In this document: positions 47,502 to 53,286 of the stretch, one piece after another
How positions within the stretch are numbered: position 1 is the first letter of the stretch
How the letters are laid out: every line of letters starts with the position of its first letter
Origin: Jaapia argillacea MUCL 33604
Lineage: Eukaryota; Basidiomycota; Agaricomycetes; Jaapiales; Jaapiaceae
Direction: 5' to 3'
Assembly (NCBI GenBank): GCA_000697665.1
Contig: KL197717.1
Location: forward strand, 630,095 to 694,094
DNA length: 64,000 bases
Program-made: the position numbers and the translations under genes
Notes under the pieces: model-generated
The model's database searches: none
What the model was told of the DNA's origin: nothing
What the model saw: only the letters and a program-made list of their open reading frames with translations

Positions 47502-47561
47502 ACCTATGAGATACCCCAATATGTCGATCGCTAGATCAACTTATTGGGGTATCTCATAGGT
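47502..47561. repeat. perfect 20-bp inverted repeat with 20-nt loop
   Basis: Arms at 47502-47521 (ACCTATGAGATACCCCAATA) and 47542-47561 are exact reverse complements, separated by 20 nt that include CGATCGCTAGATC. The other duplication arm lacks this sequence: homology stops at CCAGGAACC beside the hairpin, so it arose or was inserted here. Confidence 0.9.
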
Positions 47562-48243: not shown

Positions 48244-51200
48244 TCAATGATGTCGCTCCATCTCGATAATGCTGGGTAGGAGTCGAGTGGATGAGGGGTT
48301 TGACTTCAAGCCCGCTAGGAGAGGGTATGCGTCGAGGGACCGAGCCGGCCAGCCCGTGTAAACGCAACCCGATTCGGCTGTTTCTCCAGAGGTGAGAAGG
48401 GTATGCTCCAGAAGCATTGAATTGTCCTCCATCGAGGCGCCGGAGAGCAGTCGGGAACCGGTGCGAAGCGCACATCTGGAATCATGACATGAGAAGGATA
48501 TGAAGGCATGAACACTGAGCACTCACGAGTTCCCTATTTTCAGGGTATGGAGGGAGAATTTTCCTCGCGAATTGATATGAGCGACGACCGAGCAATCGTC
48601 TAAAGCCACTCTGTCACCCAACTGGACGAGATCTGGCTCCGTCATCAAGCCTACTCTACCACCAGCAAATATCGCACAATCTCTTCCCATCTTAGCGCCC
48701 ATAGCGCGGAAGAGCCACACAATATAGGCAGAGCCAGTGATGTTACCCAAGATACCACCATTTCCGAAGGCTCGATAGAGAGTGCGAGAGAGGACGAGAT
48801 GTAGTTGCCAACGTTGGGAGTATGAACTCTTGTCCCAATCGTAGCTTCCCTCCTGCCGACGACCGATAAGCACCCACTTAGTCGCGAGTACCCAACCAAT
48901 GGCGAGCCAAGTCTGAATGTGAAGGGCGACGACGAAAAATGAGGCGATCAGACCATACAAAGTGAAAACCTGATACCAAGTGTTATCGAAAATGTGGAGT
49001 TGCGGGAGGTGAATGCGGATTTCGTTCAGGATCTGGGTGCAGAAAACGGCGGGTATCGACCAGTACCCGGCTGATCCACCGGCGACGAGGAGGTTGATGA
49101 AGATGATCAAAGGAAGAGGAAGGACATAATAGGAAGCATCATGCTCGTAAAATGCCTTTCCGAAGGGGCTCATCGTGCTTCCGCCCACATCTTTGTGAGG
49201 CTTCGTGAAACACACCGCCTGTCCATGCTCAACTCCCATCCAAACCGAACCATCTCCATAAGAGCCATTACGGACACCCATGGCTCCGGAACCCATCACA
49301 GTACGCCGACCAACTCGAGTCCCAGGTAGCAATACAACGCGATCGGCAATCATCGCACCATCGGCGATGGTCACTCTCGCAGACCCAGTCGCGTCGGTGG
49401 TGAATATTTCGGAGCGGGATCCAAAGACAACGTCGTCCCCAATCTCGAGGAGCTCAGGATCGGGGCAGTAGACACCAGACCCTGGCCAATAAACCCGTTT
49501 CCCCACTTTGGCGCCCATTGCTCGCATGACCACCGATACCATCTCGTAATGACTTCCCAGAATATCAAACGTACGACACAGAGCCTGTTGTGAAAGTAGG
49601 TTTTCGCTGATATGGCGCCGAAGGAGTGACCACTGGCTCGCATCAAACATCGACCCCTCAGTGTTCAACCCCATCAGCCGCTTGACGATGATACCGAGCA
49701 AGGTTTGGATGAGAGGAGGGATGATGATCCTAATGATGCGCGCAAGCGAATGCCACATAATCCGTTGGGGGGAAGCGAACCACTTGATGACGGTTTCCAA
49801 GGAATTCAGACCGGCGTTGTTCATCGTCTGTGTCAACAGCGCGAAAAGTGCGGCGAACCATGGAATGTAGGAGATGAAGGTGACCACGAAAATGATGGGC
49901 ATAGCGACGAAGATTTGGAGAGCCCAATGAGGTTTGACAAAGTTGGTTCGGTTATAGCCAGCATGATTCTTGGGGACGGGCTCGTCATAGGACGAAGCGT
50001 GAGGACCGTATACAGCGCCATCAGGGATGACAGCACCAGGAGAGATCTGAGTGTAGGTGTTCAAAACCGCTCCCTTCCCAACGACGATCCTATCCAACCG
50101 GAAGTACCCATCTCGCTCAACACAAAAACCTCTCAAAAGAGCCCTATCGATCCTTGCACCATCGTGGATCGTCAACAAGTCATACTCACCCAACTTGGCC
50201 ATCTTGTCAATCTTGACATCCCTCCCAATTTTCGCGCCCAATAATCGGTAATAGGTCAACTCTAACCATGGATGCATCGCAAAGATACCACGGCCTGCAA
50301 CCCGGATGAACTGATTAGTGATCCACCACCGAAGATGATAGTTGCTCCAAAATCTGTAGACGCCGGGTTTGTATCTCCCAATGACGATCCACTTGACCGC
50401 AATCGCCGCGAGAGGGAACAAGACTCGAGCAATCAACCTAGCAGCGATGATAGCCGTCATTAACGACCCAATCCTCTCCCAATAAGTCCCGTTGATGAAA
50501 CGAGACATGGCTGCGAGGATGAAAACGATGGCCGTCCAGGTCATGGCTGCCTTGAGGGGATAGAAGAATATGACCGGAATGGCCTGGACGAGCAAAGGTA
50601 TAGGATGAGTCTGCCTCCTTCCTTTATCCTCTCTTTCGAAGGTGAAGGCGAGAGTCTCCGAGTCCAAAGCGTCGCTACTCCAATTCGGACTCCCAATGAA
50701 CTTTTCCGATCCAAGAGCCGTCGCAGTCGCAACAGCAGTCTTCGACATGGCATCCTGCATCTCAGCATCAACAAGAGTCGCGATGCCATTGATGGTGCTA
50801 TAATTGAAAATCGAGGAAACCTTCAAACTAGCGCCCGTCTCCTTTCGAATGAAATGGGCGAGTCGACCGAGGAGTAACGAGTTCCCTCCAATGAGGAAGA
50901 AATCCGAATCGCCAGTGATCTCTCCAGGGTCGCGTTCCAACAACCTCGCAACTATATCCCTGACCATCAAAGCACGACTGGACATGATCGAAAATTGACG
51001 GTGCTTGATCTGCCTATCCATCAATTCCCAATCCACCTGCCCATCAACGGTCCTCGAAAACACATCCTGAACGACGTGGATGGGGTTAGGCACGCAATAA
51101 CCATGCAAAACCCGCAACAATCGGTCGGTGATGATATTGGCGTCCAATCCAATTTCGGGGAGGACACCAACGAGAGCCTCGAGTGATCCATCTCTCTTCA

Positions 51201-53286
51201 TCCTAACGGCAACCTCTTGAACACCCGAAATCTGCTCCAACATCCTTCCCACTCGAGGTACGTCCAGCGATACCCCAGTACACGATATCGGGTCAGAATG
51301 CCTCGCATGTCTCCTGGGGGCCTGAGCTTCGAAGTGCCTCGAGTAAACAGGCAAATCATCCGAAACGGTTCCCAGACCTAACCTCGTCGCCAACTTGATT
51401 CTCAAAGGTTTCCCAGCCGCGTTCTTAGGCAAGTCTTCCATATAAACGATCAAGAAGGGCCATTTCGAAGGGTGGAGAGCATCTCTCAACAATTCCTGCA
51501 ACTCCGCGATGCCGATACGAGGTCGTGTATGGGCGGGGACGACGACCAAGCCGATGGTTTCCTGCAAGACGTCATGGTCGACGGAGAAAGCCAACACAGC
51601 CACCAAACGATCTTGAGCGACCTGAAGGACGGCTTCTTCAATCTCGAAAGGGGATATAACTTCACCCCCTTTATTGATGATCTCTTTTGAGCGACCAGTG
51701 ATGTAGAGGTATCCATCCTCATCCATATACCCAAGATCACCCGAGTCGAACCAACCCTGGCTCGAGAATGCCGACGTATCGAGGGGCACACGAGGATCAG
51801 GGGAGATTTCGTATCCTTCAAACGTCGGTAACCCTCGAATGCAAACAGCCCCCACCTCTCTCATCTTACATTCCAACTCCGTATTGCCAGGTTGTCGGAT
51901 ACTCAAATGAGGTCCACAAGCGATACCGGAGCAACCGGGGCGATCGAGGGCGTAAGAAGTCGGGGGGGATGCTATAGGCATACATTCCGTCATTCCGTAG
52001 GATGGTAGGATGGTAGCGCCGAATGTGGAGCGGAGAGATGTAGCGAGGGTCGGGAGGAGACCTCCCGCTGCGTTTGCGATCATGCGTAGTTTGATGGAGG
52101 ATTTTGGGAATGGGGACGGTGCGGAGGAGAGGATGGCATGATGCATTGTTGGTGCGGCATAATACCTGCGATGTGATCGGAAACCGTTGGTGGAGAGCGA
52201 ACGATAATGAGGGAATAGATATAAAAGTGATTAGGAGGGACCAATCTTCCGACAAGAGGGAAAAGGAAACTAACCATGTTGCACCGCGCTCGATGATGAT
52301 AGGCCAGAAGGCCTGAGCATCAAATCCCGTGCACATGATTGCACTCCCACCCGAGAACATGGGTGCCAACAAGTTACGGACGATACCGCCGACATGGAAC
52401 AAAGGCATCATGTTCACTTGAAAGGAATGAATGAGTACGGTGGTCACATAGCCAACAGAGCAAGGAAAAGACATACTGTTGACATCTTCTTGGCGGAGAT
52501 CCCATGATTTAATGACACAGCATGTCCCAACAATCAAGGATCGCAGAGAATATGGGACTACCTGTGTATGTATGCGTGGTCAAGTCCATCGGTACAGAAC
52601 TGAAAACCCGAGCGGCTTACCTTCTTCTTTCCACTCGTTCCTGAGGTATGCAAAACCAAGCTCTGATCATTCAAGCTATGTAATTTAGAGGGGTAACGTC
52701 GTCTTTTCCTTGGAAGGACACCCAAAGTCCGTTCATCGTCATTTTCCTCCATGACGTCCATATCAAACAAACCAACAGGACCGTTCGTCCTCCCGTGTAC
52801 AAGAATAATCTCACAGTTCAAACGCCTCCTCAGCTCCCGCAACTCCAAGCGGTCAGCCGCATCCGACGTAGTGATGACCGCCTTTGCCCGTAAGTTCCTA
52901 GCATCTTCGAACAGCTCCGTCGGTGTACACGAGGAGTTGACAGGAGCGCACGTGTGGTACGCTGCTACCGCCAGCAAAGCCAGAGCGTTCTCGGGGCCAG
53001 TGGGCAAGACGACCATGACCCTGTCATTAGGACCCAGCGGCGTGCCATGCAAGGTCGATGTTGGCAGGCAGAAATTAGAGATGAAATGGTGTAGAGTGTT
53101 ATGGGATAGAGGGGGTTGTGAAGGCTCAGGGGACCAGAGAGCGGGGCTGTCTGTGGAACAAAGACAGTCGAGTAGGGTGTTGTATCGACCAGACTGGAAC
53201 AGGTGGTCTGCTAGGTGGTCGCCCAGGGAAGAGCCATGCGGAGGGGCAGGCAGGGTGTGCAGAAAGCAAAGGGGAGTGTTCATCAT
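48244..53286 (-). CDS. membrane peptide-synthetase-like protein: adenylation, carrier and three beta-helix domains
   Basis: Five exons (53286-52621, 52561-52477, 52416-52275, 52165-48527, 48475-48244) total 4764 nt, 1587 aa. Residues about 20-550 are an AMP-binding adenylation domain: LVLHTSGTSGKKKV (phosphate loop), MMPLFHVGGI, SYGMTECMPIASPP, GWFDSGDLGYMDEDGYLYIT, GRSKEIINKGGEVISPFEIE and the catalytic-lysine motif PKNAAGKPLRIK. A second short alpha/beta unit follows (about 595-680), then a carrier domain (DSDFFLIGGNSLLLGRL, Ser near 726). The last 800 residues alternate membrane helices with three left-handed beta-helix (hexapeptide) units near 945-1025, 1190-1300 and 1460-1560, each opening RxxGAKxG. 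No condensation or thioesterase domain is seen. This is the layout of epsilon-poly-lysine synthetase (Pls) and related 'NRPS terminal domain' proteins. Monomer and product are unknown. Confidence 0.85.

Follow-up and report, generated by a model that had tools for sequence, protein, structure and literature searches.

Introduction

Membrane synthetases of the Pls/PosA family (TIGR02353) make the homopolymers epsilon-poly-lysine and delta-poly-ornithine. PosA requires Asp217 to bind the alpha-amine and Glu221 to bind the side-chain amine, and neither of the mutants in which Asp217 or Glu221 was changed to Ala had detectable activity (PMC10522769). The family includes a fungal member, Epls of Epichloe, which makes epsilon-poly-lysine and is described as keeping the conserved lysine-type pocket (PMC7179176). 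Another fungal enzyme, the polymalate (PMA) synthetase of Aureobasidium melanogenum/pullulans (accession QHD40385.1 in PMC11905612), acts on a non-amino acid; its published descriptions list A-like, T and C-like domains and transmembrane segments, with no thioesterase found (PMC9210645; PMC11905612), as well as six membrane segments and a gene of 5049 bp (PMC9210645; PMC11905612; PMC10751350). Here we analyze a 64,000-nucleotide stretch of DNA from the basidiomycete Jaapia argillacea MUCL 33604 (contig KL197717.1, positions 630,095 to 694,094; hereafter the window), in which a gene on the minus strand at 48244..53286 encodes a protein of 1587 amino acids. By sequence comparison, this protein joins an adenylation core of the acyl-coenzyme A (CoA) ligase type to a Pls-like carrier and membrane half, and it carries an extra C-terminal adenylation subdomain (C-subdomain) between them.

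The solved structures nearest to the first part of the protein (residues 60-557) are oxalyl-CoA synthetases, plant AAE3 and yeast Pcs60, which are stand-alone enzymes that load CoA. In the Jaapia protein, a related core is instead fused to a carrier and a membrane domain.

Results

Domain order of a Pls-like membrane protein

The spliced gene model runs from an ATG at 53286 to a stop codon that ends at 48244, with five exons (53286-52621, 52561-52477, 52416-52275, 52165-48527 and 48475-48244) and four introns of 59, 60, 109 and 51 nt, all GT-AG. Introns this short, like the gene content, would suit a fungus. The frame and splice sites of the model match those of a second copy in the same genome. 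The adenylation core and its own C-subdomain come first, followed by the extra unit and the carrier; in the remainder of the protein, three membrane-helix pairs and three left-handed beta-helix units alternate. All of these parts are encoded on the minus strand. The first C-subdomain, the extra unit, the carrier and the membrane part are encoded inside a single unbroken exon of 3639 nt.

Pfam identified AMP-binding (E 1.5e-38), PP-binding (8e-12) and Hexapep (4.1e-10) matches, and no condensation or thioesterase family was among the five families listed at E up to 1. Among the best 25 of 116 NCBIfam matches, TIGR02353 covered three stretches (E 9.8e-49) with 166.3 bits, under its curated cut-off of 423.1. 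From the hinge onwards, identity to bacterial Pls was 20-26%. A prediction made earlier from the DNA letters alone (the original prediction) had described a Pls-like membrane synthetase with one adenylation and one carrier domain and no condensation or thioesterase domain, and had named the TIGR02353 profile as a check; Pfam, TIGR02353 and hydropathy agree on this outline.

The adenylation core is of a different class

By database comparison, the adenylation core (residues 60-454; 51697..53109, spanning introns 1-3) is not of the Pls type. In a phmmer search of the PDB, which was repeated with the core alone, its best solved relatives were plant and yeast oxalyl-CoA synthetases (6qjz, 5ie0 and 8aff; 188, 183 and 160 bits), and the next family was malonyl-CoA ligase at 121 bits. 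A bacterial Pls used as a control (L028) matched adenylation structures of nonribosomal peptide synthetases (NRPS) and PosA/Pls instead (best 60 of 123 matches). The NCBIfam families that best matched the first half were fatty-acyl and other acyl-CoA ligases, and the GMTECMPIASPP core resembles acyl-CoA synthetases more than amino-acid-activating enzymes, a kinship which the original prediction had suggested and which the NCBIfam and PDB searches bear out. The core is followed by its own C-subdomain (residues 455-557; 51388..51696) with the A10 lysine Lys550 in AAGKPLR, which matched acyl-type C-subdomain profiles in hhalign at P 1.6e-13 (three rows) and 3.7e-16 (15 rows). The A8 motif GRxKExINxGGExISPxE is common to this protein and the oxalyl-CoA synthetases.

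We then compared the pocket with that of PosA. The position of the alpha-amine-binding Asp217 is occupied by Val259 (52391..52393), whereas Asp is found in 11/11 Pls rows of the same alignment. At the Glu221 position, where all 11 Pls rows have an acid, the residue is Val263 in an ungapped reading or Arg264 in the MAFFT alignment, and is non-acidic both ways. A clear Asp had been named beforehand as a sign favoring poly-lysine, and the Val259 found in its place argues against that product. Because the amine-binding Asp and Glu are missing, the protein is not a plain poly-lysine synthetase; since these are two defining residues, it does not appear to belong to the cationic homopolymer synthetases, although its C-terminal half is Pls-like. 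The earlier suggestion that the product may not be poly-lysine is consistent with this pocket, and the monomer is probably a carboxylic acid without an alpha-amine. The Epichloe relative that had been invoked for comparison does make epsilon-poly-lysine, and its pocket is described as lysine-type (PMC7179176), which would make it no functional equivalent.

Two pocket stretches common to AAE3 and Pcs60 differ here: VHG reads VGG, and SCSAS (SCSSA in Pcs60) reads NAAGG. Presumably both stretches have a role in oxalate binding; the passages of one paper that were searched for such a role contained nothing on it. With both stretches altered, oxalate was dropped as a candidate substrate.

The extra unit is nearest to Pls/NRPS C-subdomains

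Between the core's own C-subdomain and the carrier lies an extra unit (residues 587-681; 51016..51300) that extends from the A8 hinge to A10 and that profile comparisons identify as a homologue of the adenylate-forming C-subdomain. In hhalign, it matched a seven-row bacterial Pls C-subdomain profile at P 1e-5, and a 57-row Pls C-subdomain profile, with rows picked from 78 by redundancy, with a probability of 94.9, P 4.5e-8 and a score of 47.9 over 94 columns (hinge to A10). The top score in 150 column shuffles was 20.6. When 134-residue windows were slid along the whole protein, four scored >21, and the aligned parts were the extra unit or the core's own C-subdomain.

To place the unit between the two classes, size-matched profiles were compared. 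The unit scored 45.0-49.1 with five similarly diverse 15-row samples of Pls, and 26.0 (P 7e-4) with a 15-row acyl-CoA ligase profile (15 of 30 acyl-CoA-ligase loci, the other 15 lying outside the search pattern). The core's own C-subdomain showed the reverse pattern, scoring 88.3 with the 15-row acyl profile and 40.4 with the 57-row Pls one. With a three-row profile of close oxalyl-type sequences, the extra unit gave P 0.13, so that the weak acyl match surfaced only with 15 rows, and there was no match to the protein's own first C-subdomain, residues 455-557 (P 0.31). By these comparisons the extra unit clearly resembles the Pls/NRPS type more than acyl-CoA ligases, a difference of degree. The original prediction had read the unit as a repeat of a C-subdomain: the homology stands, but a repeat of the protein's own first C-subdomain does not.

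A hidden Markov model (HMM) built from the two fungal units, with no bacterial rows, was run against 7240 open reading frames (ORFs) of prokaryote loci. It returned 110 ORFs at E up to 10 with a top E of 2.3e-9, values that hold for a set drawn almost wholly from Pls loci, and among the best 25 of these 110 the matches lie in Pls or NRPS ORFs and begin at or just past the A8 hinge. The best of 15 added acyl-CoA ligase ORFs reached 5.8 bits, compared with 35.8 for the best Pls, and the median over 80 long Pls-locus ORFs (match >60 positions) was 16.2. In a whole-genome search, the fungal profile also matched an ordinary NRPS across unit and carrier (profile positions 28-204, E 2.3e-14), in which NRPS motifs were seen. 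Even with the threshold raised to E 10, Pfam had no match for the unit.

Structure prediction without an alignment gave a predicted local distance difference test (pLDDT) score of 42 for residues 455-775. A model of residues 570-1510 built with 42 bacterial Pls rows had a mean pLDDT of 65; the unit reached 73-81 at model positions 31-110, with lower values for its first residues, and beta-helix-like strand patterns followed downstream. The 15 best PDB matches in Foldseek were NRPS chains over 174-197 columns, a span close to that of a C-subdomain and carrier together, with a best E of 2.9e-7.

In both gene copies, Gln674 (DGQVD; 51037..51039) occupies the place of the A10 lysine in the unit. 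No other folded segment is less conserved between them than the unit, which has 72% identity and a ratio of nonsynonymous to synonymous divergence (dN/dS) of 0.205; it is constrained nonetheless. This fastest rate of change fits a relic under structural constraint only. Thus, from its Pls/NRPS kinship and its lost A10 lysine, the extra unit looks like a relic of a replaced adenylation domain and not a duplication.

The carrier and membrane half are Pls-like

The carrier (peptidyl carrier protein domain; residues 699-763, 50770..50964) has the phosphopantetheine serine, Ser727, in GGNSL. Hydropathy and the helices of the model place six membrane helices in three pairs, at residues 820-894 (50377..50601), 1040-1129 (49672..49941) and 1307-1393 (48880..49140). 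These alternate with three tandem left-handed beta-helix units (C1-C3), at about residues 943-1021 (49996..50232; TIGR02353 match and model), 1184-1281 (49216..49509; Pfam Hexapep at 1229-1259, TIGR02353 and model) and 1456-1560 (48328..48693, spanning intron 4; TIGR02353 match and alignment). The original proposal of beta-helices is supported by the family matches together with the model, which, at its mean pLDDT, is of medium confidence and makes the assignment a predicted one.

In unit 3, Thr1473, Glu1474 and His1494 (48577..48579) are invariant in 43/43 rows of the alignment. By analogy with other beta-helix acyltransferases, we infer that His1494 is a candidate catalytic base. Between the gene copies, dN/dS was smallest in the carrier (0.029) among the segments compared, 0.03-0.05 in the beta-helices and 0.074 in the core.

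The bacterial Pls sampled have amino-acid-type cores

We next looked for acyl-type cores among bacterial Pls, using 80 loci kept from one scan. The amino-acid-type amine-binding motif was present in 74/80; in the other six (L047, L051, L081, L097, L102 and L104), the stored DNA begins too near the matched part to include it. A search of 398 genomes from the phylum of G001 gave matches in 19, and the motif was found in 21/21 further loci, comprising these 19 and two others (17 directly, four in a longer stretch). An acyl-type core was therefore present in 0/95 readable bacterial Pls loci, a sample that is mostly from one phylum and in which some loci may be counted in both sets (at least L060, L072 and L038 are). 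Scans of viral contigs and prokaryote genomes, which reach close relatives only, returned no close relative. In the literature titles and abstract openings searched, none described a Pls-like protein with a core of acyl type or with an additional C-subdomain.

Two Pls loci on plasmids had features of their own. On a Sphingomonas plasmid (L027), the Pls gene is directly followed by genes for a phosphopantetheinyl transferase and a GNAT acetyltransferase. A Pls on a Pseudonocardia plasmid (L031:1871-5977), read by eye, has a seemingly degenerate adenylation part and several carriers in a row.

A second gene copy and the surroundings of the locus

The host genome comprises 43.7 Mb in 95 contigs, and a TIGR02353 search of it gave matches at two places only, which are the two gene copies. 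The second, intact copy (C44:164664-169688) has the same order of parts, the same intron positions and an open frame; spliced alike, it yields 1641 codons, and its protein is 86% identical to that of the window copy. Over 1584 codons, dN was 0.082 and dS 0.909, a pairwise dN/dS of ~0.09 in which the two branches are not separated. This difference between dN and dS shows that the gene pair evolved under purifying selection. The C-terminus of the second copy is 54 residues longer (1641 vs 1587 codons), and the tails part directly after MERH (L022, about 2500-2670, vs window 48244).

When the 50 kb around the second copy were compared with the window, DNA alignment was limited to the gene itself, and translated matches outside the gene did not exceed 31 bits. 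Hence no flanking gene is common to the copies, and the second copy is non-syntenic with the window copy. It adjoins an anoctamin-type (TMEM16) gene (L022:221-1991), of which two neighboring ORFs are pieces. In the window, a Pfam scan of seven ORFs, short of a full annotation, found one RNA-recognition motif (RRM) protein, one C2H2 zinc-finger protein and five ORFs without a Pfam match; no biosynthetic cluster was evident among them. A perfect 20-bp inverted repeat with a 20-nt spacer lies about 0.7 kb past the 3' end of the gene (window 47502-47521 / 47542-47561).

Discussion

From the arrangement of these parts we infer a history, a substrate, a linkage and a route of export. The protein would be a membrane enzyme of Pls/PosA architecture whose amino-acid core was swapped for a complete adenylation enzyme of the oxalyl-CoA-synthetase branch. 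In the simplest history, a Pls that had lost its core but still had its C-subdomain, carrier and membrane part became fused to an oxalyl-CoA-synthetase-like enzyme, which brought along a C-subdomain of its own; the retained C-subdomain beside the carrier may serve as a non-catalytic spacer or docking unit. ATP would activate a carboxylic acid without an alpha-amine, assisted by Lys550 of the first C-subdomain, and the acyl group would be loaded onto the phosphopantetheine arm of Ser727. The membrane beta-helix domain, with His1494 as candidate base, would then link the acyl units and extrude the product, which with a hydroxy acid as monomer would be a polyester. A polyester is our leading guess, with polymalate as the leading candidate type, because polymalate synthetase is the one fungal enzyme that we found described with a similar layout for a non-amino acid. 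As a whole, the reading that an acyl-CoA-ligase-type enzyme replaced the Pls core, that the old C-subdomain stayed, and that the product is an acyl polymer of a non-amino carboxylic acid has, in our judgment, about an even chance of being right.

The comparison with known systems can be made at three points. With the Pls/PosA family, the protein shares the carrier, the three membrane-helix pairs, the three beta-helix units and the invariant His in unit 3, and in both the condensation and thioesterase families were not found; it differs in its core, which belongs to another class and lacks both amine-binding acids, in its additional complete C-subdomain, in its low identity from the hinge on and in its sub-threshold TIGR02353 score. 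With polymalate synthetase, it would share, by the published descriptions, the character of a fungal NRPS-like membrane enzyme for a non-amino acid, with A-like, T and C-like domains, no thioesterase and a similar gene size. The likeness to oxalyl-CoA synthetases is confined to residues 60-557, and the fusion and the pocket stretches VGG and NAAGG set the protein apart from them.

Several observations weigh against the proposed core replacement and polymer product. The Pls C-subdomain profile is a general C-subdomain detector, since the core's own acyl-type C-subdomain also scores 40.4 with it (P 6.6e-7), and the extra unit itself has a weak match to acyl-CoA ligases. A phmmer search of the PDB with the unit gave a single weak match, to FadD10, an acyl-CoA ligase (E 0.16), and acyl-CoA synthetases also appear at lower Foldseek ranks, over about 100 columns. 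The rows used for the model align Pls C-subdomains to the unit, so the agreement with the NRPS fold is not independent, and the database searched with the unit-only HMM consisted almost wholly of Pls loci. The changed pocket stretches mean that the dicarboxylate specificity of the oxalyl-CoA synthetase branch is not simply transferable. The P-loop reads TSGTSGKKKVV (residues 212-222, end of exon 1, about 52621-52653) and not the usual PKG form (TSGTTGxPKG); it is the same in both copies, and because it is conserved between them it is probably tolerated. In the membrane half, the EDR-MK motif present after the invariant His in the majority of Pls rows is missing, and the TIGR02353 score falls under the curated cut-off. 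Finally, the six membrane segments of polymalate synthetase are N-terminal according to a review (PMC9210645) and C-terminal here, and any kinship with that enzyme is a conjecture from its described layout.

The strongest competitor accepts the acyl-type core and differs in what the membrane half does: the enzyme would activate an acyl group, possibly larger and without a hydroxyl, which the beta-helix domain transfers once to a lipid, sugar or amine, as an acyltransferase and not a polymerase. Left-handed beta-helix enzymes are often single acyltransferases, the first half is best matched by fatty-acyl and other acyl-CoA ligases, the small neutral residues of VGG and NAAGG could make the pocket a large one, and in Foldseek the model has a weak match to serine acetyltransferase (E 1.5e-3, prob 0.54). 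However, all three Pls-type units and six membrane segments, which are tied to polymer synthesis in Pls/PosA, have been kept, selection on the beta-helices is strong, and the one fungal enzyme that we found described with such a layout for a non-amino acid makes a polymer. We consider a single transfer possible but less likely than the polymer reading. Far less probable still is a plain poly-lysine or poly-ornithine synthetase with a divergent pocket: the order of carrier, membrane and beta-helix parts is the same, and a fungal Epls does make epsilon-poly-lysine (PMC7179176), but the residues for the alpha-amine and the side-chain amine are both missing and the core is of the acyl-CoA-ligase type.

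The remaining readings dispense with a domain swap. The extra unit could be a tandem duplicate of the core's own C-subdomain or an unrelated insertion, as two C-subdomain-like units adjoin, the second is unseen by Pfam, and it has the weak match to the 15-row acyl profile. However, it does not match residues 455-557, and both the size-matched profiles and the unit-only HMM gave a much better Pls/NRPS than acyl match, so that this explanation is already disfavored and we rate it very improbable. A protein that joins parts from two enzyme classes might also reflect a wrong gene model or an assembly chimera of two genes; this is hardly credible for a locus in which C-subdomain to membrane part share one 3639-nt exon and a second genomic copy repeats the order, intron positions and open frame.

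If the core replacement is correct, a membrane homopolymer synthetase acquired a new class of monomer through the exchange of a single block, and the joint is still marked. It would also suggest that the membrane beta-helix domain handles substrates beyond diamino acids. We tentatively propose, with the balance somewhat against us, a class of eukaryotic enzymes that arose when an acyl-CoA ligase took the place of the core in a cationic isopeptide-polymer synthetase, leaving a C-subdomain scar, and that make polyesters or other non-peptide acyl polymers. Such a class would point to further fungal enzymes for polyester-like biomaterials.

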